A DNA stretch of 64,000 nucleotides from contig JAHBVC010000002.1 in NCBI GenBank assembly GCA_019637755.1, positions 357,342-421,341 of the forward strand, given 5' to 3'. Within the stretch, counting starts at the first letter, position 1, and every line of letters starts with the position of its first letter. The notes beneath the pieces were generated by a model that had not been told where the DNA came from, made no database searches, and saw nothing but the letters and a program-made list of their open reading frames with translations. Below are positions 1-58,134 of the stretch, piece after piece. A program made the position numbers and the translations under genes. Source of the stretch: Anaerolineales bacterium (GTDB taxonomy: Bacteria; Chloroflexota; Anaerolineae; Anaerolineales; UBA11579).

Positions 1-1385
1 CAGGCCGCCACGCGGGCCGTGCCCACATCCGGCTGGCGGCTGAGGAAGCTGGCCGCTTCGTCCAACCCTTCGCCCCAACCCAAGAGCATCACATGTTGCG
101 CAGCGGCAGTGCCACCCAGAAGCGGATTATAGAAGTTGAGGTAATACGGGAAGGCGCCCAGCGCCCAGAAGGCCTGCGCGCCGAGCAGCAGCGCCGCGGC
201 GGCCAAAGGGCGCCAGCGGGCGCCGCGCCACTGGCGCAAAGCCGCCGCCAAACCCCAGCCAGCCAACAGCACCAGCGCGGCGTAGGCCGGCAGCATATAG
301 CGATCGAATTTTTTGGCGGCGACACTCATGGCGAGGATAAACACCGCCGCAAAGCCGAGCAGCGCGACCAGCCCCTGGCGTTGCTCCGGCGGCTGGCGGC
401 GCCAGGCCCATAGGGCCGCCGCGGCCGCCAGCACGCCCAGCCAATCCAGCGGTGTGGCGCGCCATAAAAACGTATATAGATAGAAGTAGGCCGAAGCCAG
501 GCCGAGCTCCCCATTGGGATACAACTGGCCATTGAAATAGATCGGCCCGCTGTGTTCGCCGCTGGCGGTTTCGGCTGCATAGCTCCACACCTCACCGAGC
601 GCCTCCAGCGGCGCTACCCACATCTTGGGCCACAAGGCTACGTACACCAACAGCGCCGCCAGCCCGCAGACCAGCACGCCGCGCCACACCGTGCGCCGCG
701 CGGCGGGTTGGCGCCAGGCCTGCCACACGGCCAGCGCCAGGATGCACGGCCCCAACAGCAGCGTGGGCGATTTGGTCAGCCAGGCCAAGCCCGCCGCCAG
801 CCCGGCAACGGCCGCATGGCGCAACTGGCCTGTGCGCTGGTGCCAGGTGAAAGCCAGCAGCGCCAGCAAGACCAGCCCGGCCATCAGCCCATCTTGGTGC
901 AGCAAGCGTTGGTGCGCGATCAGGAAGGGATCCAAGGCCAGCAGGCCGCCGGCCAGTGCGGCGGGCCAGCCACCCCACACGCGCAGCAGATACCAGGCCA
1001 GCGCGGCGAACACCAGCGTGTTAGCCAGCACCATCACCTGGCGCGCCGCCGCCAGAATTTGCACCGGGTTGTAGCCCGCCTGGCGGAAGGCGGTGCGCAC
1101 ATGAAAATCTGTGATCTGTTCGGGTGGATCGCTAGCGAAATCTGGCAGGCGCGCACGCAGCCCCAGCACGCCCGCCCAGGCGGTGGTGAGCCCAGGGTGC
1201 CCGGCCAGGCCGGTATCGTGCCAATCGCCCTGCTCCACCGCCACCGCCAACTTGGCTGATTGGGTCAGCCAGAAGACTTCGTCAATGGTGACGTAGCGCC
1301 CCAGGCCGGGCCAGCGCACGGCGAAGAAGACCAGCACCAGGCTGGCCCACAGCCACCACCGCGCGGAGAGTATGGCGCTACGCAT
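1..1385 (-). CDS. GT39/PMT-like polytopic glycosyltransferase, 3' end cut by window edge
   Basis: An open frame runs from the ATG at 1385 to base 1 with no stop, so the C-terminus lies outside the window. The visible ~461 residues have a Trp-rich N-terminal membrane segment, an Asp-Glu pair at residues 35-36 in the first external loop (IDEVFW), a GHPGLTT motif, and many Leu/Ala/Trp-rich membrane helices. This matches the dolichyl-phosphate-mannose-type (GT-C, ArnT/PMT_2) fold, which transfers sugars from lipid carriers at the outer face of the membrane. The substrate cannot be inferred. A TATAAT box (minus strand, 1399-1394) ends 8 nt before the ATG and there is no Shine-Dalgarno sequence. 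Confidence 0.75.
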   Translation of the reverse strand, partial: MRSAILSARWWLWASLVLVFFAVRWPGLGRYVTIDEVFWLTQSAKLAVAVEQGDWHDTGLAGHPGLTTAWAGVLGLRARLPDFASDPPEQITDFHVRTAFRQAGYNPVQILAAARQVMVLANTLVFAALAWYLLRVWGGWPAALAGGLLALDPFLIAHQRLLHQDGLMAGLVLLALLAFTWHQRTGQLRHAAVAGLAAGLAWLTKSPTLLLGPCILALAVWQAWRQPAARRTVWRGVLVCGLAALLVYVALWPKMWVAPLEALGEVWSYAAETASGEHSGPIYFNGQLYPNGELGLASAYFYLYTFLWRATPLDWLGVLAAAAALWAWRRQPPEQRQGLVALLGFAAVFILAMSVAAKKFDRYMLPAYAALVLLAGWGLAAALRQWRGARWRPLAAAALLLGAQAFWALGAFPYYLNFYNPLLGGTAAAQHVMLLGWGEGLDEAASFLSRQPDVGTARVAA

Positions 1386-1460
1386 TGGCGTGGATTATAC
1401 GCGCCCACTGCATCATCCCCGCCGCCGGTGTCCAGCGCCTTGACATTGGCTTGACTGCGC

Positions 1461-1489
1461 TTGAAAAAAATTCACATCCTCAGTATCAT
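1461..1489 (+). promoter_or_regulatory. Promoter of the 1507 gene
   Basis: TTGAAA (1461-1466), 17-nt spacer, TATCAT (1484-1489). The predicted start of transcription, near 1496, falls inside the GAAC-N4-GTTC palindrome. Confidence 0.5.
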
Positions 1490-1491
1490 CA

Positions 1492-1507
1492 TAGAACAAT
1501 CGTTCTA
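1492..1507. promoter_or_regulatory. GAAC-N4-GTTC palindrome (LexA/SOS-box-like operator)
   Basis: TAGAACAATCGTTCTA is a 16-bp interrupted palindrome (6-bp arms around AATC) with the GAACNNNNGTTC core of Gram-positive-type LexA boxes. Its last A is the first base of the ATG of the gene at 1507, and it covers the predicted transcription start, so a bound repressor would block initiation. Confidence 0.5.
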
Positions 1508-1938
1508 TGGAAAACAGCCACGCACTCAACACCACCCATCGCAACAAAAAGGCCGTCGCCCACATTGTGCAGCAATATCGCATTCTGGCGGGCACATCCT
1601 ACAAGCCCGCCACGCTGCGTGAATTTGCACATGAGCTGAGCGAAGCCTTGCACAGCATCGGCCGCAGTGTGAGCTACCAGAGCATCAAGAATTGGCAAGA
1701 CCGTGTCTACCTGCCGGACACCTTGCTGATGATGCGCCTGGCCCAAGTGGCCAAGCACGATTGGCGCGGCGAATTTGCCGCCGACATTCTGGCTGCGCTG
1801 TACCCGCAGGAGTACCAGCCGCTCACCGAGATCGGCCGGCGGGCATTGCTCAGCAGCGACGAAATCCGACTCACAGGGGAACAGTATGGGGGCCAACAAA
1901 AAGAAGCCAATGAAGCCACAAGGCTCAGTCGAAGTTGA
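1507..1938 (+). CDS. Hypothetical 143-aa protein behind a LexA-like box
   Basis: Not recognised as a named family. The 143 residues are charged, soluble and mostly helical. The middle (about residues 35-85, including SVSYQSIKNWQDRVYLPDTL) resembles a small helix-turn-helix or phage-type regulatory fold, which is only an impression. There is no Shine-Dalgarno sequence, because the space before the ATG is the GAAC-N4-GTTC palindrome; a very short-leader mRNA is likely. The last ~17 codons overlap the start of the next gene (1886) in another frame. The promoter/operator layout suggests damage-inducible expression. Confidence 0.5.
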   Translation: MENSHALNTTHRNKKAVAHIVQQYRILAGTSYKPATLREFAHELSEALHSIGRSVSYQSIKNWQDRVYLPDTLLMMRLAQVAKHDWRGEFAADILAALYPQEYQPLTEIGRRALLSSDEIRLTGEQYGGQQKEANEATRLSRS

Positions 1939-2122
1939 AGTGACCCGCGTGGAGCAGTATGCCTGCGGGTGCACCACCACGCGCATCGAAAGCAGCCAAC
2001 TGGCGCGCAAGTGGTTGCAGCATTGCAGCGCCCACCAGGGGCGCCTGGTCAAAGTGGAAACGGTGATGGAGTTCCAACTGGAAGCCGAGACACCGCGCCC
2101 CGCCGCGGCCCCGGCGGCGTAA
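1886..2122 (+). CDS. Hypothetical 78-aa Cys/His-containing protein
   Basis: ATG at 1886 follows AGGGGA with 5-nt spacing. The product has a Lys-rich start, a YACGCTTTR stretch with two Cys, a HCSAHQ stretch that could supply further metal ligands, and an Ala/Pro tail. It overlaps the 3' end of the upstream gene by 53 nt in a different frame, which suggests translational coupling. No known family recognised. It ends 4 nt before the convergent metalloprotease gene. Confidence 0.45.
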   Translation: MGANKKKPMKPQGSVEVEVTRVEQYACGCTTTRIESSQLARKWLQHCSAHQGRLVKVETVMEFQLEAETPRPAAAPAA

Positions 2123-2126
2123 GCCG

Positions 2127-3377
2127 CTAGGGTGCGCCCGGCGTAGCAGGCGCCAGGCGCACGCGGTCGTACCCGGCCGTGCTCGCCAACACCTCGATCG
2201 TATAGCCGGCCACGTTCAGCGCCTCGCCGCGCTGCAGCGTGGCCTGCGCCAGCCCGGCATCTTCTTGCGCCGGCGGCCACACCACCAGCGGGCCATAGCC
2301 GCTGGCCACATTAGCATCCACCACATACACCAGCGCGCCCGGCTCAGGCAGCAAGTGATCATAGCCTTCGGCGCGGCGGCTCTCCACCACCAGCAAACGG
2401 CCGGCGCCCAGCGGCAGCAACACCGCCTTCATGCCGCCCTGGCGTTCGATCGGCGTGAGCTCCACGGTCAACGCCTCCCCTGCTGGCAGGCAATACACCT
2501 GCTCGTCAGCCAGCCAACCCAGCAGCCAGCGCTCCAGCGCACTCAGCTCCGGTGCGAAGCCAAAGATGTTGCCCATCAGGCTATAGCCGCCGGAATACGG
2601 GAACTGATCCAGCGGCGCATCATAGGCGTACAGATCCGGCAGGCCCAGGCTGTGGCCAAGTTCGTGCGGCAGCCACATCCAACCCCAATACAACAGGTCA
2701 CGGCCCGAAGTCATGCCATTGGCGATGATCACGCCATCCGCCTGCAGGCCGGAACTGCGAAAGCCGGTGTAGGTTGGCCCGTAGGCAATCGCCTCCGCAT
2801 CCGGGTTGCTCAGCACGATCACCAAGTCGGCGCCGGAGAAATCGACCTGCGCATCGGCCAGATCCACCGCCTCTTGCAAAAAGGCCAAATGCGGTGCGTA
2901 GGCGCTCAGGCTGGCGCCGTAGTGCGCCGCTGGCTGGCTTAGGCGCAGCCAGGTGTAGTGCGGTTCGAGTTGAAGTGCAAAGCGCCCATAGGATTGCGCG
3001 GCCAGAAAGTCCTCGGCCTGCGGTGAGAGCAAGGCCAGCACCGCTTGCGGGCTGCGGCTGGAGGGCGCATCCTCAAAATCGGCGAAGAGCACTACGGCGC
3101 GCACGGTGCCCAGGCTGGGCAAGCGCTCAGGCGAGCGCGGCCAGCCCAGCCCCAAGTGCGCGCGGCTGGGCAACTGGCAGGAGCGCACAGAACGCGGCGT
3201 GGGGCTGGCTGCGGGGCTGAGCGTTGGGCTGGGCGTTCGCTCGAACATCGCGCTGGGCGTGCTGGCGGCCGTCGGGCTGGCGCTGGGGAGCAGCGTGGCT
3301 GGCGAGGCCGTGTGCGCGCGGCAAGCCAGCAGGGGCACCAAGAGCAAGGGGCTAAGCCATGCTGCGCGCATCGGCAC
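2127..3377 (-). CDS. Secreted M6-like zinc metalloprotease lipoprotein
   Basis: A 416-aa exported protein. The N-terminus is a lipoprotein signal with lipobox LLAC (Cys about residue 19), followed by a Ser/Thr/Pro linker to about residue 65. The catalytic core contains HELGHSLGLPDLYAYD, i.e. HExxH plus the downstream GLPDLYxxD segment typical of immune-inhibitor-A (M6) peptidases. Two nearby Met codons (residues 1 and 3) are possible starts and neither has a clear Shine-Dalgarno. It would act outside the membrane in protein degradation; the substrate is unknown. Confidence 0.75.
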   Translation of the reverse strand: MPMRAAWLSPLLLVPLLACRAHTASPATLLPSASPTAASTPSAMFERTPSPTLSPAASPTPRSVRSCQLPSRAHLGLGWPRSPERLPSLGTVRAVVLFADFEDAPSSRSPQAVLALLSPQAEDFLAAQSYGRFALQLEPHYTWLRLSQPAAHYGASLSAYAPHLAFLQEAVDLADAQVDFSGADLVIVLSNPDAEAIAYGPTYTGFRSSGLQADGVIIANGMTSGRDLLYWGWMWLPHELGHSLGLPDLYAYDAPLDQFPYSGGYSLMGNIFGFAPELSALERWLLGWLADEQVYCLPAGEALTVELTPIERQGGMKAVLLPLGAGRLLVVESRRAEGYDHLLPEPGALVYVVDANVASGYGPLVVWPPAQEDAGLAQATLQRGEALNVAGYTIEVLASTAGYDRVRLAPATPGAP

Positions 3378-3395
3378 TACTTCATTTTGGCGCGC

Positions 3396-5558
3396 TTACT
3401 CAAAAGTAACCGCCCCACCGCTCAACCGGTCGATGCAGCCATTGACGAAGTTGCGCTCCTCAATGCCGGGGGCGGCCACCCCGTAGGGATTGGGCAGCAG
3501 GGCGCGCAACTTCACGGTGCCCTGCGCTGCGGCCTGCGCACCTTGCAGGCTGGCGAAGAAGCTGCGCACCGACAAGGCGTAATGCTGGTACTCGGGCAAC
3601 AGGGCTGCGCTGCTGCTGGCTTGCACCAGCAACACGATGCTCAACAACACCAGCGCGGCGCGCTGGGCATAGCGCAGGCCGCGCCCGGAAAGCTGCTTCA
3701 GCAGCCAGGGCGCGCTGAGCAAGCCGGCCAGCGGCGCGATCAGCACGGCCAAATAGGTGGGGATGATCGCCGTGCGCGCCGGCAAGCCATCCAAGGCGTA
3801 ATGGCCGACGGCATTGGCGCTCAGCACGCCGGCCGCCAGGATCAAGACCGCGCCGAAGCTCAGGCCGCGCAGCCGTGGCGCGGGCATGCGCCGTGCGCCC
3901 ACTGCGCGCGCCGCCAGCACCAGCCCAATCACAAATAAGGCCAGCGTCAGCCCGTTGAGCGCATCCCCGAACAGTAGCACGCCCGTATCATAGAGCGCCC
4001 CATAGCCCACGCGCAGCGGGTCAAAGCTGGCCCCCAATACACTGCCGCGCGCCGCCGTGCCGGGCGAAAACAGATGCACCGCCAAGGCGGCCAGCGCGCC
4101 AAAGAGTTGTGCGCTCAGCGCCGCCGGCCACCCGCCGCCCGCGGCGCGGCGCGCCGGGCGGCGATAGGCATACACCAGGCCCAACGCCGCCAGCAACATG
4201 CCCACTTGGGCGGCGGCATAGGCTTCGTGGAACAGGCCGGCAACTGCGCTCCCCAGCACCAGGCCGCCCAGCGCCCCAGGGCGCAGCGGGCGGCGCGCTC
4301 CCAGGGCCAGCAAGCCACCCAAGGCGGCGCTGCCCACGATCAACGAAGCCACCAGCGGCTCGCGGCCAGAGCGCCAATACAGCGATTGCGCCACAGTAGG
4401 CGTGAGGATCAGCGTCACCAGCACGCTCAAGCTGCTCAGCAGCAGTGCGGCGCCCCATGGGCGCCGCGCGCCGAGCCAGTGCAGCACGCCGTGAAAGGCC
4501 CATGCCAAAGCCGCCACCCACACCGCCAAATACAGCAACACCTCAGCGGGGAACTGTTGTTGTGGTGAAAGGCCACCGCTGAGCATGCCCAGGAAGTTCC
4601 CCAGCAAGCGCCCATTGGCCTGCGTATAAAAATTCCAGGTCCCCTGCCACACGCCCACTTCAGCTGAGGAGATGGCATAACAAAAATCATCGGCAGCCAG
4701 GGCCGCATTGCGCCCCACCACGCCCATCACCAGCAGGTTCAATGCCGCCAGTGCGCCCAGCCACACCAGCCAGCCAGCCTCCGCCGTAGCGCGCCCGGCG
4801 GCGGGCTGCAGCGCTAGCGCCAGCCCCACGGCCACGCAGACGCCCAGCACCACTAGTGCCAGCGTGGCGGCCCACAGCAGCGCCTGGCGCAGCACGCTGA
4901 TGCCCAGCGGGTGGCTGCCGTGCAGATTGAGCACGCGGCTACCCGGCAGCGGCTCGTCCAGCGCGATGGTGCGTGCCTGCCCATCCCACACGATGTGGGC
5001 CGGGCCAACCTGCGGGCCACTCTGCAAGGAGAGTACAACGCCCCCTTTAAAGAAGGCCTCGTAGTGCACGCACGAGCCGGACTGTTGAGTTAGCAAGGTG
5101 TCGCCGGAAAAATTCCACGGGTCATCGCCCTTGATGCCGGCCAGCATCACGCGCACGCCATCCTCGCGGGTGATGCCTTGGATCACAAACGGGGCGTACA
5201 TCGGCTGCGGGGCACACACCTCGAGGCGGTGCGTGGCCGGCACGCGCACCTGGGCCTGCAGCATGAGGCCTACGGGCACCAAGCCAGCAAAGATCAGCGC
5301 CGCCAGCGCCCATGTGTTGGCCGGCAGCTTGCGCCGCCGCGCCAGCCACCCCTCAGCGCCCAGGCGCGGCAGCGCCGTGGTGCTCAGCCAGGCACCCGCC
5401 AGGCTGGCCAGGGCCACACCGGTCAGCAGTGGCCTGGCCGGCCACTGCAACGCATCCAACCAATACACCAGCACAAACCAGCCCAGGGCCACCCCGGGCA
5501 CCGCCCATAGCAGCCTTTGGCGCCAACCCAGCCGGTTTTTCTGTTGTTGTTTCTTCAT
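3396..5558 (-). CDS. Large polytopic membrane protein (DUF6056/GT-C-like)
   Basis: 720 aa from the ATG at 5558. A Lys/Gln-rich cytoplasmic start leads into two membrane helices, an extracytoplasmic beta-rich domain (about residues 85-230), then roughly ten membrane helices. The motif AADDFCYAISSAEVG and the following NGRLLGN segment sit in a loop where GT-C sugar transferases carry acidic catalytic residues; this resembles DUF6056 proteins. The frame stays open upstream to 7205, but that part is antisense to the cyclase gene and is rejected. A minus-strand TATAAT (5582-5577) lies 18 nt upstream, overlapping the divergent promoter of the cyclase. Confidence 0.65.
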   Translation of the reverse strand: MKKQQQKNRLGWRQRLLWAVPGVALGWFVLVYWLDALQWPARPLLTGVALASLAGAWLSTTALPRLGAEGWLARRRKLPANTWALAALIFAGLVPVGLMLQAQVRVPATHRLEVCAPQPMYAPFVIQGITREDGVRVMLAGIKGDDPWNFSGDTLLTQQSGSCVHYEAFFKGGVVLSLQSGPQVGPAHIVWDGQARTIALDEPLPGSRVLNLHGSHPLGISVLRQALLWAATLALVVLGVCVAVGLALALQPAAGRATAEAGWLVWLGALAALNLLVMGVVGRNAALAADDFCYAISSAEVGVWQGTWNFYTQANGRLLGNFLGMLSGGLSPQQQFPAEVLLYLAVWVAALAWAFHGVLHWLGARRPWGAALLLSSLSVLVTLILTPTVAQSLYWRSGREPLVASLIVGSAALGGLLALGARRPLRPGALGGLVLGSAVAGLFHEAYAAAQVGMLLAALGLVYAYRRPARRAAGGGWPAALSAQLFGALAALAVHLFSPGTAARGSVLGASFDPLRVGYGALYDTGVLLFGDALNGLTLALFVIGLVLAARAVGARRMPAPRLRGLSFGAVLILAAGVLSANAVGHYALDGLPARTAIIPTYLAVLIAPLAGLLSAPWLLKQLSGRGLRYAQRAALVLLSIVLLVQASSSAALLPEYQHYALSVRSFFASLQGAQAAAQGTVKLRALLPNPYGVAAPGIEERNFVNGCIDRLSGGAVTFE

Positions 5559-53958: not shown

Positions 53959-56185
53959 TCAGGATTTACGCCACACCAAGCGCACCTGCGTGCCGGCGCC
54001 CGGCTGCGATTCGATCGAAAGCTCGGCGCCGATCAGGGCGGCGCGCTCGCTCATGCTGGCCAGGCCGTAGTGCTGGGCGCGCAGCAGATCGGTCAGTTGG
54101 GCGCCTTGGGCGTCAAAGCCGCGGCCATCGTCTTCGACCAGCAGGTCGATACAATCCGGCTCCAACTGGCCGCTAATGGTCAGGAACTGGGCTTGGGCGT
54201 GTTTGAAGACGTTTTCAGCGGCCAGTTGCACGATGCGGTAAGCGTGTTGGGCCACCTGCTCTTCGTAGGCATTGGTCACTCTCCGGCAACAGCAGCGAAA
54301 CTTGCACCTGGGGCTTATCACGGCTGAGCACATCCACCAGCTCGATCAAGGCGCGGTAGAGCCCGTAATCGAGCATGGCGGGGCGCAGGCGGTAGATCAG
54401 TTGGCGCACGCGGTCACTCAATGCTTCATGGTGCTGCTGTAGGCGGGCGGCCTGCTCAGGCTGGCCGCCGAGGCTAACCAGCTCGTTGATGCCTGCCAGC
54501 ACATCGTCATGCAGCTCGCGCGCCATGAAGGCGCGGCGTGCTTCAACATCATCAATGCTTCTTTGATGCAGGGCGCGCAAGTTATCGGCTTGCTCAATGT
54601 TGATCAGGGCGATCGCCATTTGGTCAGCCAGGGATTGCAACAGGCGCCGCTCTGCATAGGAATAGTAGTCATCAGGGTCTTTGCGCCCCAGCAGCCACAA
54701 GCCTACCGGACGGTTAGATACATGCATGGGGATGGCCAACTGCACCCAAGTGCCTTCGGGGTCCTGCTGGCCACCTGCTGCCAGCAGCGCGGCGATCGTG
54801 GCGCTATCGGGAACCTGGCTTGTGTCAACCCCTTGCAGATACACCACTTGGCGCGCCGGGTGAGCCGAGCCCAGGTGCAGCAGGGCAGACTGGCGGATCA
54901 GCAGGCTGGGCAACACCTGCTGCTGCACGATCTCCGCCAGATTTTGGCGCGTGAAGCTGGTGGAGAGCTTGCCGGCAAAGCTGTGTTGCAAACGCTCCGG
55001 TGGCATGGGAATGTGCAGCAGCTTGCGCTCCACAAAGCGTTGGAAGCGCTCAAAGGCATACACATTGAAGAGCGAGACCAGCAAGCCGGTGATCAAGATC
55101 GAAGCCGCCACCTGCTCAGGGCTTTGCAAGTACGGCGAGAGCAGCGGCACCAGCACCAACGCGATGATGAACAACAGCACGAAGAACAGATAGAACGAGA
55201 TCAGGCGGTTGGCGCGTAGCTCCAAGCCACCCAATTGGCGCCGGTAGACCACATACAAGTAAGCGCCTGGCCAGATGATCAGCGAGATCACCACGCCACC
55301 GCTGAGGTTGGCCAGCACGCCGATCGCATTTGCCCAGGAGAGCAACATTACTGGCACCAGGCTGATCACCACGGCCAGCAGCAGAATGCCGACTTCGCGG
55401 CGCTGCTCCGGCTGGCGTACCAAGCGGATCAGCAGCAGCAGTAAGCTGCCCAGCACGGCTAGCAGCAGCGCAACGCCATAGATGCCCGCTGGCGCAATTT
55501 GCAAGGCAGAGAGCATCGCCATGGCGATGCCCAGCGCGTACAACGCCCACCACAGCAGCGCCGGCAACTTGCGGAAGGGTTTGGGGAAATGCCAGTGCAA
55601 GTGTAGATACACCGGCAGGCTCAGCCAGATACCAACGCGCAGTACTACTGCGGAGTAATACACCGTACTGCCTGAGATGCTGCCAGCCATGAACCAGATT
55701 GCCGTGAGATAGCTGAAGGCGACTAATAGATTGCGGCGTACATCTACAGGCCGCAAATGGAAGAACATGATCGTCCCAGCTACCCAGAAGGCGTAGCTAA
55801 GCCACCATGTATTGATCAAGCGTGAAACAAATTCAGGCAGATTGAAGCCCGGGGATACCAGCTCGGCAGCATGCTCGCCCTGGGCGTCCATCAGCCGCAA
55901 CTGGATCCGATCGCCACGTGAAACCCCTTCAAACCAATTGGTTGTCAGGCTCTGATCGTAGTCTTCGAAGGGCACGCCATTGGCTTCGAGAATGAAATCG
56001 CCAAGATGAATTTGCTCGGCCGCGGCAGGCGTAAAGAGCGCGCGCACCTCTCCCGTGCCGAAATACTGAAATCCGAGATACGGAATGACAAAGAAACGCG
56101 CGTAGGTATAGACCAGCAAGACAAGCAAAACCAATGCCGGAAGCAGGAACTGGGTTAGGACACGATAAAGGCCAGAAGAGCGCAT
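53959..56185 (-). pseudogene. ComP-like sensor histidine kinase, reading frame broken
   Basis: Two overlapping minus frames form one kinase. The first (56185-54215, 656 aa) starts with a membrane helix (about 8-33), a PDZ-like external domain (about 40-110, with IHLGDFILEANGVPFEDY), then about nine membrane helices (about 128-385), a GAF-like region and the HisKA_3 helix ARELHDDVLAGINEL with the phospho-His. The ATPase domain (YRIVQLAAENVFKHA, LLVEDDGRGFD, HYGLASMSERAAL) is in the next frame (from about 54280 to 53959). The frames join near LLLPE and VTNAYEEQ, where loss of 2 nt from a GA run would explain the shift. The architecture equals ComP of ComQXPA systems. It could be a true mutation, a switch or an assembly error. 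Confidence 0.82.
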
Positions 56186-56285
56186 AACTTGCTACATCGG
56201 GGAGGTGATGCCTATGTAAAGGCCGAAGCAATTCTCAGGTAAAGCCACTTACTCAACCGTTTTTCGTCAAGAAAGGAAACTTACC

Positions 56286-56438
56286 ATGTCTATGCAAGCA
56301 TTTTACTCAAACATCAGCGACTCTTCCAGCACGATCAAGGAAGTTGAGGCCCTGCAGCGCGTGGCCCAGGCCAGCCTGGAGCAGGTGCAGGCAGTGCGCA
56401 ATGAATGGGAATGGGATATGTGGAAGGAAGCCAAGTAG
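56286..56438 (+). CDS. ComX-like prepheromone peptide, 50 aa
   Basis: 50-aa open frame from ATG 56286 (AAAGGAAA upstream, 8-nt spacing) to TAG 56436. A hydrophilic helix-prone leader (ISDSSSTIKEVEALQRVAQA) leads to a C-terminal tail NEWEWDMWKEAK with Trp at 41, 43 and 46. ComX precursors are short peptides whose processed C-terminal segment carries a Trp that ComQ prenylates. It lies between the divergent kinase and the prenyl synthase-like gene 69 nt downstream. No sequence similarity is expected for this fast-evolving family; the assignment is by length, Trp position and neighbours. Confidence 0.72.
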   Translation: MSMQAFYSNISDSSSTIKEVEALQRVAQASLEQVQAVRNEWEWDMWKEAK

Positions 56439-56450
56439 GCTACCGACCTC

Positions 56451-56474
56451 GGGGCTGGCCAGTTGGCCAGCCCC
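56451..56474 (+). other. Stem-loop between comX-like and comQ-like genes
   Basis: GGGGCTGGCC / GGCCAGCCCC 10-bp perfect stem with AGTT loop and no T tract. Its position suggests an mRNA processing or stability element allowing more peptide than enzyme to be made. Confidence 0.5.
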
Positions 56475-56507
56475 ACCTTCAAATAAATCCACCTGTGGGA
56501 GAGACCA

Positions 56508-57437
56508 ATGGATACCGTGTATACCGCCGCCATTCATGAACTGCTGCGCCAGCCTGCTGTGCAGCAGTGGCCGCTGCTCGCCAGCGTGATCGAACGCGCC
56601 CTTAATGTGCGCCCGATCGCCTGGGATTTTCCGATCGCCGGCTGCCTGGCCGCTGGCGCCGAGGCCAACCAGGCGCTGGCGCCTGTGGCCGCTATCACCT
56701 GCGCCCATATTGGCATTATTTTGATTGACGACATTCTAGATGAAGATCCGCGCGGCGAGTACCGCAAGCTGGGCGCCGGGCGGGCGGCCAACCTGGCCGC
56801 CGGGCTGAACAGCCTGGGCCAGCAGATGCTGGAGCTACACCCCTGCCCGCACCCGCGCCAAGCCAGCCTGGCCTTCGCGCACATCCTCGGTGGCACAGCC
56901 TACGGGCAGGACCTGGATGTGCAGAACCAGCACAGCGAAGAGAGCTACTGGGCCGTGGCACGCGCCAAGAGCTCGCCCTACTTCGCCTCGGGGCTGGAGC
57001 TGGGGGCGCTGTACGGCGGCGCCGATCTGGCGCTCAACCAGCAACTGCGCCAGTTTGGCGCAGTGTTCGGCGAGATCATGCAAATTCATGACGATCTGAA
57101 CGATTGCCTGGCCGAGCCGGCCAATGTGGACTGGTTGCAAGGCCGCGCCCCGCTGCCGTTGCTCTTCGCCGAGCTGGTGCCGCACCCGCAGCGCGAGCGC
57201 TTTCTGCTGCTGCGCAATCAGGTGAGCGACCCGGCCGCGTTGCATGAGGCGCAAAGCATCCTGGTGAGCAGCGGAGCGATCAGCTATTGCATCAATGAGC
57301 TGCTCAGTCGCCAGCAGGCCTTGCTGGCGCTGCTGGGCGAGATGGCGCTAGCCAACCCGCGGCCGCTGCAACAGATCCTGGAGCACGCCATCGCCCCGGT
57401 GGAGCACTTGTTCGCTTCGTTGCAGCCTACGGCGTAA
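56508..57437 (+). CDS. ComQ-like isoprenyl transferase (polyprenyl synthetase fold)
   Basis: 309 aa, GGGAGAGA before the ATG. All-alpha prenyl synthase fold with the two Asp-rich motifs: GIILIDDILDEDPRGEYRKL (about 75-92) and IMQIHDDLNDCLAE (about 193-206), both DDxxD. Active-site surroundings such as HILGGTAYGQDLD match trans-prenyltransferases of the ComQ type. Next to a Trp-rich peptide gene and a ComP-like kinase, the likely reaction is prenylation of a peptide Trp rather than chain elongation of isoprenoids. The 3' end overlaps the convergent regulator by 11 nt. Confidence 0.82.
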   Translation: MDTVYTAAIHELLRQPAVQQWPLLASVIERALNVRPIAWDFPIAGCLAAGAEANQALAPVAAITCAHIGIILIDDILDEDPRGEYRKLGAGRAANLAAGLNSLGQQMLELHPCPHPRQASLAFAHILGGTAYGQDLDVQNQHSEESYWAVARAKSSPYFASGLELGALYGGADLALNQQLRQFGAVFGEIMQIHDDLNDCLAEPANVDWLQGRAPLPLLFAELVPHPQRERFLLLRNQVSDPAALHEAQSILVSSGAISYCINELLSRQQALLALLGEMALANPRPLQQILEHAIAPVEHLFASLQPTA

Positions 57438-58134
57438 ATGGATAGCCGTCATCGAGTGGCGTGATCAGCCCCAGCTCACGCGCCTTGAGGATCGCCGCAG
57501 CCATGTTGTTGACGCGCAAGCGGCGATAGCTCAGCGAGAGCATGGTGCGCACGGTAGGGTGCGCAATGCCCAACTTCTCGGCAATTTGCTTGGTGGTCAT
57601 GCCTGGGTAGGCCGCGCACAACGAGAGTACCTCGCGCTGGCGCTCGGTAAGCATCTCGATCTCGCCTTCGGCGCCGGGCGGTTCGGCCAGCGCATCCACC
57701 GAAAGCTGCGAGAGATACACCCCGCCGCCCGCCAGCAACGTCACGATCTCGGCCAGCCGTTGCGTGGCGGCGGCATCGCTTTTGACGATGTAGCCCTTGG
57801 CGCCGGCAGCCATCACCGAGCGAATGAAGGCGGGGTGCTTGTGGCCCGAGATGAGCAGGATGGCCAACTTAGGATACTGCGCAAGAATTTTGGGGATATC
57901 GCTGAACAGCGGATAGGGCGCCTGCAGGCTATCCGTCATGGGCACCGAGGCATCCAGAATGAGCACATCGATGGGATGCTCGGCCAACATGGCGAAGAGT
58001 TGGTCGCCTCGGCTGGCGGAGGCCACCAGTTCTACATGCGGGTGATCCTGAAAACGATAGGCGTAGCCATCCACGGTGGAGAGATGGTCTTCTAATACAG
58101 CAACCCGAACAGTGCGCTTTGCTTCAGTGTCCAT
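57427..58134 (-). CDS. NarL/LuxR-type response regulator (ComA-like)
   Basis: 235 aa. REC domain (about 8-130): VAVLEDH (acidic pair), DVLILDASVP with phospho-acceptor Asp61, ISGHKHP and GYIVKSD (conserved Lys). LuxR-type HTH domain (about 165-230): LTERQREVLSLCAAYPG, MTTKQIAEKLGIAHPTVRTML. It is the DNA-binding partner expected for the HisKA_3 kinase and matches ComA of ComQXPA systems. Both genes are on the minus strand, flanking the peptide and prenylase genes. A 12-bp inverted repeat lies in its upstream region. Confidence 0.88.
   Translation of the reverse strand: MDTEAKRTVRVAVLEDHLSTVDGYAYRFQDHPHVELVASASRGDQLFAMLAEHPIDVLILDASVPMTDSLQAPYPLFSDIPKILAQYPKLAILLISGHKHPAFIRSVMAAGAKGYIVKSDAAATQRLAEIVTLLAGGGVYLSQLSVDALAEPPGAEGEIEMLTERQREVLSLCAAYPGMTTKQIAEKLGIAHPTVRTMLSLSYRRLRVNNMAAAILKARELGLITPLDDGYPFTP

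Follow-up and report, generated by a model that had tools for sequence, protein, structure and literature searches.

Signalling by peptides prenylated on tryptophan is best described in the ComQXPA loci of Bacillales and some Clostridiales (PMC4008528). In these loci a precursor of about 50 amino acids with Trp near its C terminus (ComX) is accompanied by an enzyme of trans-isoprenyl diphosphate synthase fold devoid of the site for isopentenyl diphosphate (IPP) (ComQ), by a HisKA_3 kinase whose sensor consists of a transmembrane helix (TM), a PDZ loop and a polytopic membrane part (ComP), and by a NarL-type regulator (ComA), in the order Q>X>P>A> (arrowheads give gene direction). A related arrangement, PalPXQ of Paenibacillus alvei, has been described as a cluster for a ribosomally synthesized and post-translationally modified peptide (RiPP) with a kinase, and unites this kinase with a Trp-tailed precursor and a trans-isoprenyl diphosphate synthase-like Trp prenyltransferase (PMC10853753). 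ComQ and PalQ are the biochemical precedents for enzymes of this type acting on Trp (PMC5331326, PMC10853753). No ComQXPA-like locus outside Firmicutes was found in a 2014 census (PMC4008528), and a later survey credited Chloroflexi with a kinase-regulator pair only (PMC8895600); no Chloroflexota prenyl-peptide system, nor any HD-GYP receptor of such a type, was met in the literature searched, most subscription journals and all preprints lying outside that search. Here we describe a locus of four genes, P, X, Q and A, which shares the above components with ComQXPA and lies at positions 53959-58134 of a 64,000-nucleotide stretch (the window) from an Anaerolineales bacterium of the Chloroflexota. 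With a probability of about 0.8, it is a prenyl-tryptophan peptide signalling module working like ComQXPA.

The four-gene block is located between jag and a modA-like gene, in a genome of 2.26 Mb assembled in two contigs. An earlier note on this DNA had claimed four adjoining components, with P and A on the minus strand and X and Q on the plus strand, and both the open reading frames (ORFs) and their Pfam matches bear this out. Linked prenylase, small Trp peptide, polytopic kinase and NarL/LuxR regulator, that is the gene set of ComQXPA, are thus all present, the kinase being frameshifted in the window. The layout differs from the one-strand order of ComQXPA: in the window, and in the loci of the same type found in other genomes (class I), P and A oppose X and Q, giving P<X>Q>A<.

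The precursor gene X (56286..56438, plus strand) encodes 50 amino acids and is preceded by a Shine-Dalgarno-like AGAAAGGAAA, with the ribosome-binding site at about 56270-56279. As in ComX, Trp is found near the C terminus of a precursor within the range of about 50-70 amino acids; unlike ComX, two Trp residues are conserved there, as W-x-x-W. When 25 peptides are aligned, Trp43 and Trp46 are invariant and Phe6, in the leader, is nearly so, the remainder being variable. In all of the 44 loci where the enzyme is full-length and the DNA ahead of it can be read (27 from the first sets of genomes, 17 from a second set of previously unused ones), a small gene lies upstream of Q, on the same strand, and its product carries W-x(1-2)-W near the C terminus. 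When small ORFs with a ribosome-binding site were sought upstream of Q in a search blind to Trp, 23 of 25 loci yielded one such ORF and no more, and each of these ended in W-x(1-2)-W; about 200 control genes yielded none, the sole control match, L103, being itself a prenylase locus. The independent repeat on the new genomes found the peptide in 17 of 17 readable loci. Four loci, two per set, were missed by the blind search, because the ribosome-binding site was weaker or the start lay slightly beyond the range scanned, and were recovered by a search requiring the motif. The recurrence of X, with its two conserved Trp, in every intact related locus is more than chance; a prenylase without an adjoining small Trp peptide, which the earlier note had singled out as fatal to its reading, did not occur among full-length family enzymes with readable upstream DNA. 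Contig ends interrupt two further loci, L062 and L145. In a class I locus of another genome (L063, G098) the prenylase is truncated and no peptide is present, kinase and regulator being intact; this may be a receiver-only or a decayed locus.

The enzyme Q (56508..57437, plus strand; 309 amino acids) matches PF00348 with 62 bits, and its AlphaFold2 model (mean predicted local distance difference test score, pLDDT, 94.9) has the trans-isoprenyl diphosphate synthase fold, with Z about 30. Both Asp motifs of the "two-DDxxD prenyl synthase" announced by the earlier note are kept. The first Asp-rich motif (FARM), DDILDED, occupies residues 74-80 (56727..56747, plus strand), D74, D75, L77, D78 and D80 being invariant in 23 sequences; the second (SARM), DDLND at residues 195-199, together with Gln192, corresponds to 57081..57104 (plus strand). 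In the form DDxLDxD and QxxDDxxD, respectively, the two motifs are invariant in the family. Fold, FARM, SARM and the preceding Gln are all common to canonical trans-isoprenyl diphosphate synthases, such as geranylgeranyl diphosphate (GGPP) synthase and IspB. Canonical synthases bind IPP through G-K-x-x-R-P and an Arg pair after the FARM. These elements are lost in the family: they occur in 0 of 26 members and are absent from four ComQ references (annotated database records, as in all ComQ comparisons made here), whereas all 22 canonical Chloroflexota synthases compared possess them. Since the IPP site is lost in all members, IPP is most naturally taken to be replaced by another acceptor, which, if Q resembles ComQ and PalQ in this respect, would be a Trp of the linked peptide. 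The Gln before the SARM has been proposed as a Trp-recognition residue (PMC13290415), and was left unused as a marker of Trp prenylation, since it is also present in 22 of 22 canonical synthases.

It might be argued, from the PF00348 match, the canonical fold and the presence of both DDxxD motifs, that Q serves lipid or carotenoid metabolism as an ordinary polyprenyl diphosphate synthase, that it lies beside an unrelated two-component system by chance, and that the small ORF is spurious. This appears very improbable, as IPP-site residues are lost in all members, two separate canonical synthases are encoded elsewhere in the genome, a peptide with two conserved Trp accompanies the enzyme in every intact locus, and the family forms a clade separate from canonical synthases. 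An assignment of Q as an ordinary GGPP synthase was rejected on the absent IPP site and the constantly linked peptide. In the tree, the canonical synthases fall on one side (86/90), and the family, ComQ and two odd proteins on the opposite one, a separation weakened by long branches; the grouping with ordinary GGPP synthases that the earlier note had named as contrary evidence was not observed. For a clade of family plus ComQ, the approximately unbiased test on the same tree, with its long branches, gives p 0.094. Two divergent polyprenyl-synthase-like proteins without IPP site were also encountered, in L104 (G328, 1804-2892) and L090 (G164); the former has ND in the SARM, like ComQ, and no adjacent Trp peptide was seen at its locus.

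The sensor kinase P is read on the minus strand. Its N-terminal ORF (54215..56185, 656 amino acids) contains a helix at residues 9-27, a PDZ-like loop, a polytopic membrane part, a GAF-like region and HisKA_3, the phosphoacceptor region of which (54383..54535, minus strand) includes ELHDDV; the kinase architecture put forward by the earlier note, which was silent on the frameshift, is therefore recognizable. The loop between TM1 and the next helices (55841..56095, minus strand), probably extracellular, matches Pfam PDZ_2 at E 0.0046, below the cut-off, and Anoxybacillus ComP gives a PDZ match at the corresponding place. In the AlphaFold2 model of the sensor, TM1 is followed by a loop of beta/alpha pattern at the place of the PDZ, and then by about eight helices. 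In five of the six class II relatives (see below) examined, the loop holds two cysteines 7-11 residues apart, consistent with an extracellular location. When the sensor half (residues 1-400) was compared by hhalign with the sensor of Anoxybacillus ComP, taken from an annotated ComQXPA locus, a probability of 96-97 was obtained (E 4e-9 to 1e-11, about 300 columns); a second ComP (SteP, L101) gave 78, and the controls, unrelated polytopic proteins and reversed ComP, did not exceed 1.1. A fold search of the sensor returned weak helical-bundle matches and no relative. The profile match, with its negative controls, indicates that the P sensor is homologous to the Bacillota ComP sensor, in line with the ComP-type kinase originally proposed. 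The record containing L101 (CP031730.1) is labelled as a Stenotrophomonas plasmid; its ComQ-ComX pair is nearly the same as one on a Lysinibacillus plasmid (L100), and the record is probably contaminated or mislabelled. Gene A (57427..58134, minus strand), convergent with Q and overlapping its end by 11 bp, is a NarL/LuxR-type response regulator, as had been suggested, with matches to Response_reg (E 3e-9) and GerE (E 1.5e-11); it occupies the same place in class I relatives.

The search for Q covered 101 relatives, and a profile of the enzyme was run against two samples of 400 genomes each, one from the phylum and one from the order. Profile scores are bimodal: most family members exceed 190 bits, most canonical synthases stay under about 105, and a few copies, partial or divergent, are intermediate. 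Within the order sample, 48 of the 400 genomes have an enzyme match at E 1e-32 or better; the phylum sample contains six above 400 bits, one of which (G110) is outside the order and the class. A plasmid search with the window enzyme gave no match. Class I loci combine the window layout with a HisKA_3 kinase and a NarL regulator and, in the genus of the window, occupy a constant site between yidC-jag and modA-padR-gapdh. In class II, X>Q>P> are all on one strand, the enzymes form a subclade (91/93), and a homologous sensor is joined to other outputs, a further departure from ComQXPA. In four of these loci (L053, L055, L057, L059) the ComP-like sensor is fused to HD-GYP (HD_5 E 1e-32 to 1e-39, HD and GYP motifs intact), which may provide a direct route from peptide to cyclic di-GMP (c-di-GMP); in two (L049, L061) it is found on HisKA kinases, one of them a hybrid with a receiver domain. 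The same genes thus recur in Chloroflexota, with layout and synteny conserved, when neighbourhoods are compared as the earlier note had proposed. In the 4044-bp contig C635 of G110, which belongs to another class of the phylum, the contig start repeats the contig end inside the receptor gene (L102); this may reflect either circularity of the assembled molecule or tandem duplication of an X-Q-P module.

The four shared functions, the homologous sensor and the absence of the IPP site in both ComQ and the family could also be explained by transfer of a canonical ComQXPA from Bacillota, the locus then being a strict member of that group. This is extremely improbable: the peptide is outside the ComX Pfam, SARM and gene order differ, the enzyme falls outside the ComQ clade, albeit with long branches, and the locus is kept in place across the genus. 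Strict ComQ and ComX membership was indeed excluded by the SARM, which is DDxxD in 26 of 26 members and (N/G)Dxxx in all four ComQ references, and by the ComX profile. For these two reasons the locus is termed ComQXPA-like, and not a strict member. The functional reading of the earlier note is well supported (paired peptide and enzyme, loss of the IPP site, sensor homology to ComP, conserved layout and synteny), the locus nonetheless lying outside strict membership. The label "ComQ-like" for Q holds for the kept FARM and the lost IPP site, and not for the SARM or the ComQ profile, which shows no preference.

The likeness to PalPXQ raises a different alternative, namely that X and Q produce a prenylated RiPP, an antimicrobial or membrane-active lipopeptide, which would not mainly serve population sensing, P and A doing no more than tune its production, a situation that may also hold for the Paenibacillus Pal cluster. 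The description of PalPXQ as a RiPP cluster with a kinase and the constant linkage of receptor and peptide genes are in its favour; the window shows no linked gene for immunity, transport or proteolysis, the loci with HD-GYP receptors point to a regulatory output and the sensor is homologous to ComP, so that we regard this alternative as unlikely. PalX differs in its NHLP leader and strictly terminal Trp: in most of the peptides described here the leader is short, with Phe conserved, and in many the chain continues past the last Trp; PalQ is likened to Q by description, not by sequence. A connection with the Pal type is provided by locus L065 (G061, 571-5075), of order X-X-Q-P, where two tandem 71-amino-acid peptides with NHLP-like leaders, ending in HRGWM, are followed first by a divergent prenylase and then by a HisKA kinase with a PDZ-polytopic sensor, which hhalign matches to that of the family at 99.5.

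Regulation of the signalling module may be reflected in the divergent P-X intergenic region (56186..56285, no strand assigned), where a conserved box, GGGGAGGTGATGCCTAT, is located at about 56199-56215. As GAAAGGAGGTGRT..ATTATAG, it is present between P and X in 33 of 35 class I loci and, apart from weak matches, is a single site per genome. When the P strand is read, many loci show TATAAT followed by ACCACCTCCTTTC; the -10-like TATAAT is followed, directly ahead of the P gene, by CACCTCCTTTC, which corresponds to the 16S rRNA 3' terminus (anti-Shine-Dalgarno). The box may represent the promoter or an operator of P, in agreement with possible autoregulation. Its interpretation as a short upstream gene was dropped, as the reading frame is not kept.

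Several observations weigh against a module working like ComQXPA. No ComX Pfam (PF05952) match was obtained for seven peptides, including that of the window, under conditions where an Anoxybacillus ComX control matches at 2.7e-20, and the ComQ profile scores the family no better than canonical synthases. The family has DD in the SARM, despite the finding that an Asn-to-Asp change in the SARM of ComQ drastically lowers Trp geranylation (PMC5331326); PalQ, on the other hand, keeps Asp at the first and last SARM positions, and a double mutant of these residues still works (PMC10853753). Genes for an exporter or a protease are not linked to the locus. Finally, the kinase of this particular genome reads as frameshifted: the 656-amino-acid ORF extends to HisKA_3, and the ATPase domain is found in another frame, in a second ORF (53959..54333, minus strand; HATPase_c E 3e-9). 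Between the conserved LPES and YE, 10 nucleotides are present in the window and nine in relatives, which places a one-base frameshift near 54268-54280. Intact kinases of the genus are 737-755 amino acids long, in a single reading frame; kinase and ATPase matches adjoin in seven relatives (L034-L040), and both HisKA_3 and HATPase_c lie within one protein in class I relatives such as L042, where the HisKA_3 match is weak and below the cut-off. The frameshift may be either an assembly or sequencing error or a real loss of the kinase.

If the locus works like ComQXPA, X would be translated as a precursor of about 50 amino acids, and Q would bind an allylic diphosphate (geranyl, farnesyl or geranylgeranyl) via its first Asp motif and, instead of elongating it with IPP, use it to prenylate X at a C-terminal Trp, the more likely site being the second Trp of W-x-x-W. 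The modified C-terminal piece would then be freed and, like ComX, leave the cell, to be detected by the TM-PDZ-polytopic sensor of P, which would phosphorylate A; the latter would probably act on the divergent P-X promoter and on further target genes. Sister loci would couple this sensor to HD-GYP c-di-GMP phosphodiesterase domains or to hybrid kinases.

On a broader scale, we lean towards the view that Chloroflexota have a modular prenyl-Trp signalling of their own, where a TM-PDZ-polytopic sensor is combined with W-x-x-W or NHLP-leader peptides and with NarL, hybrid kinase or HD-GYP outputs; in the last case an extracellular prenylated peptide would control c-di-GMP breakdown within a single protein. 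The carriers are known mostly from metagenomes, and the peptide sequences are short enough for synthesis and testing. The family also adds a new group of candidates for Trp prenylation, unexpected in their active-site motif, and supplies receptors which may tie a peptide signal directly to c-di-GMP. A conserved peptide-prenylase-receptor module would extend communication by modified peptides of this kind, previously reported only from Bacillota, to another phylum.

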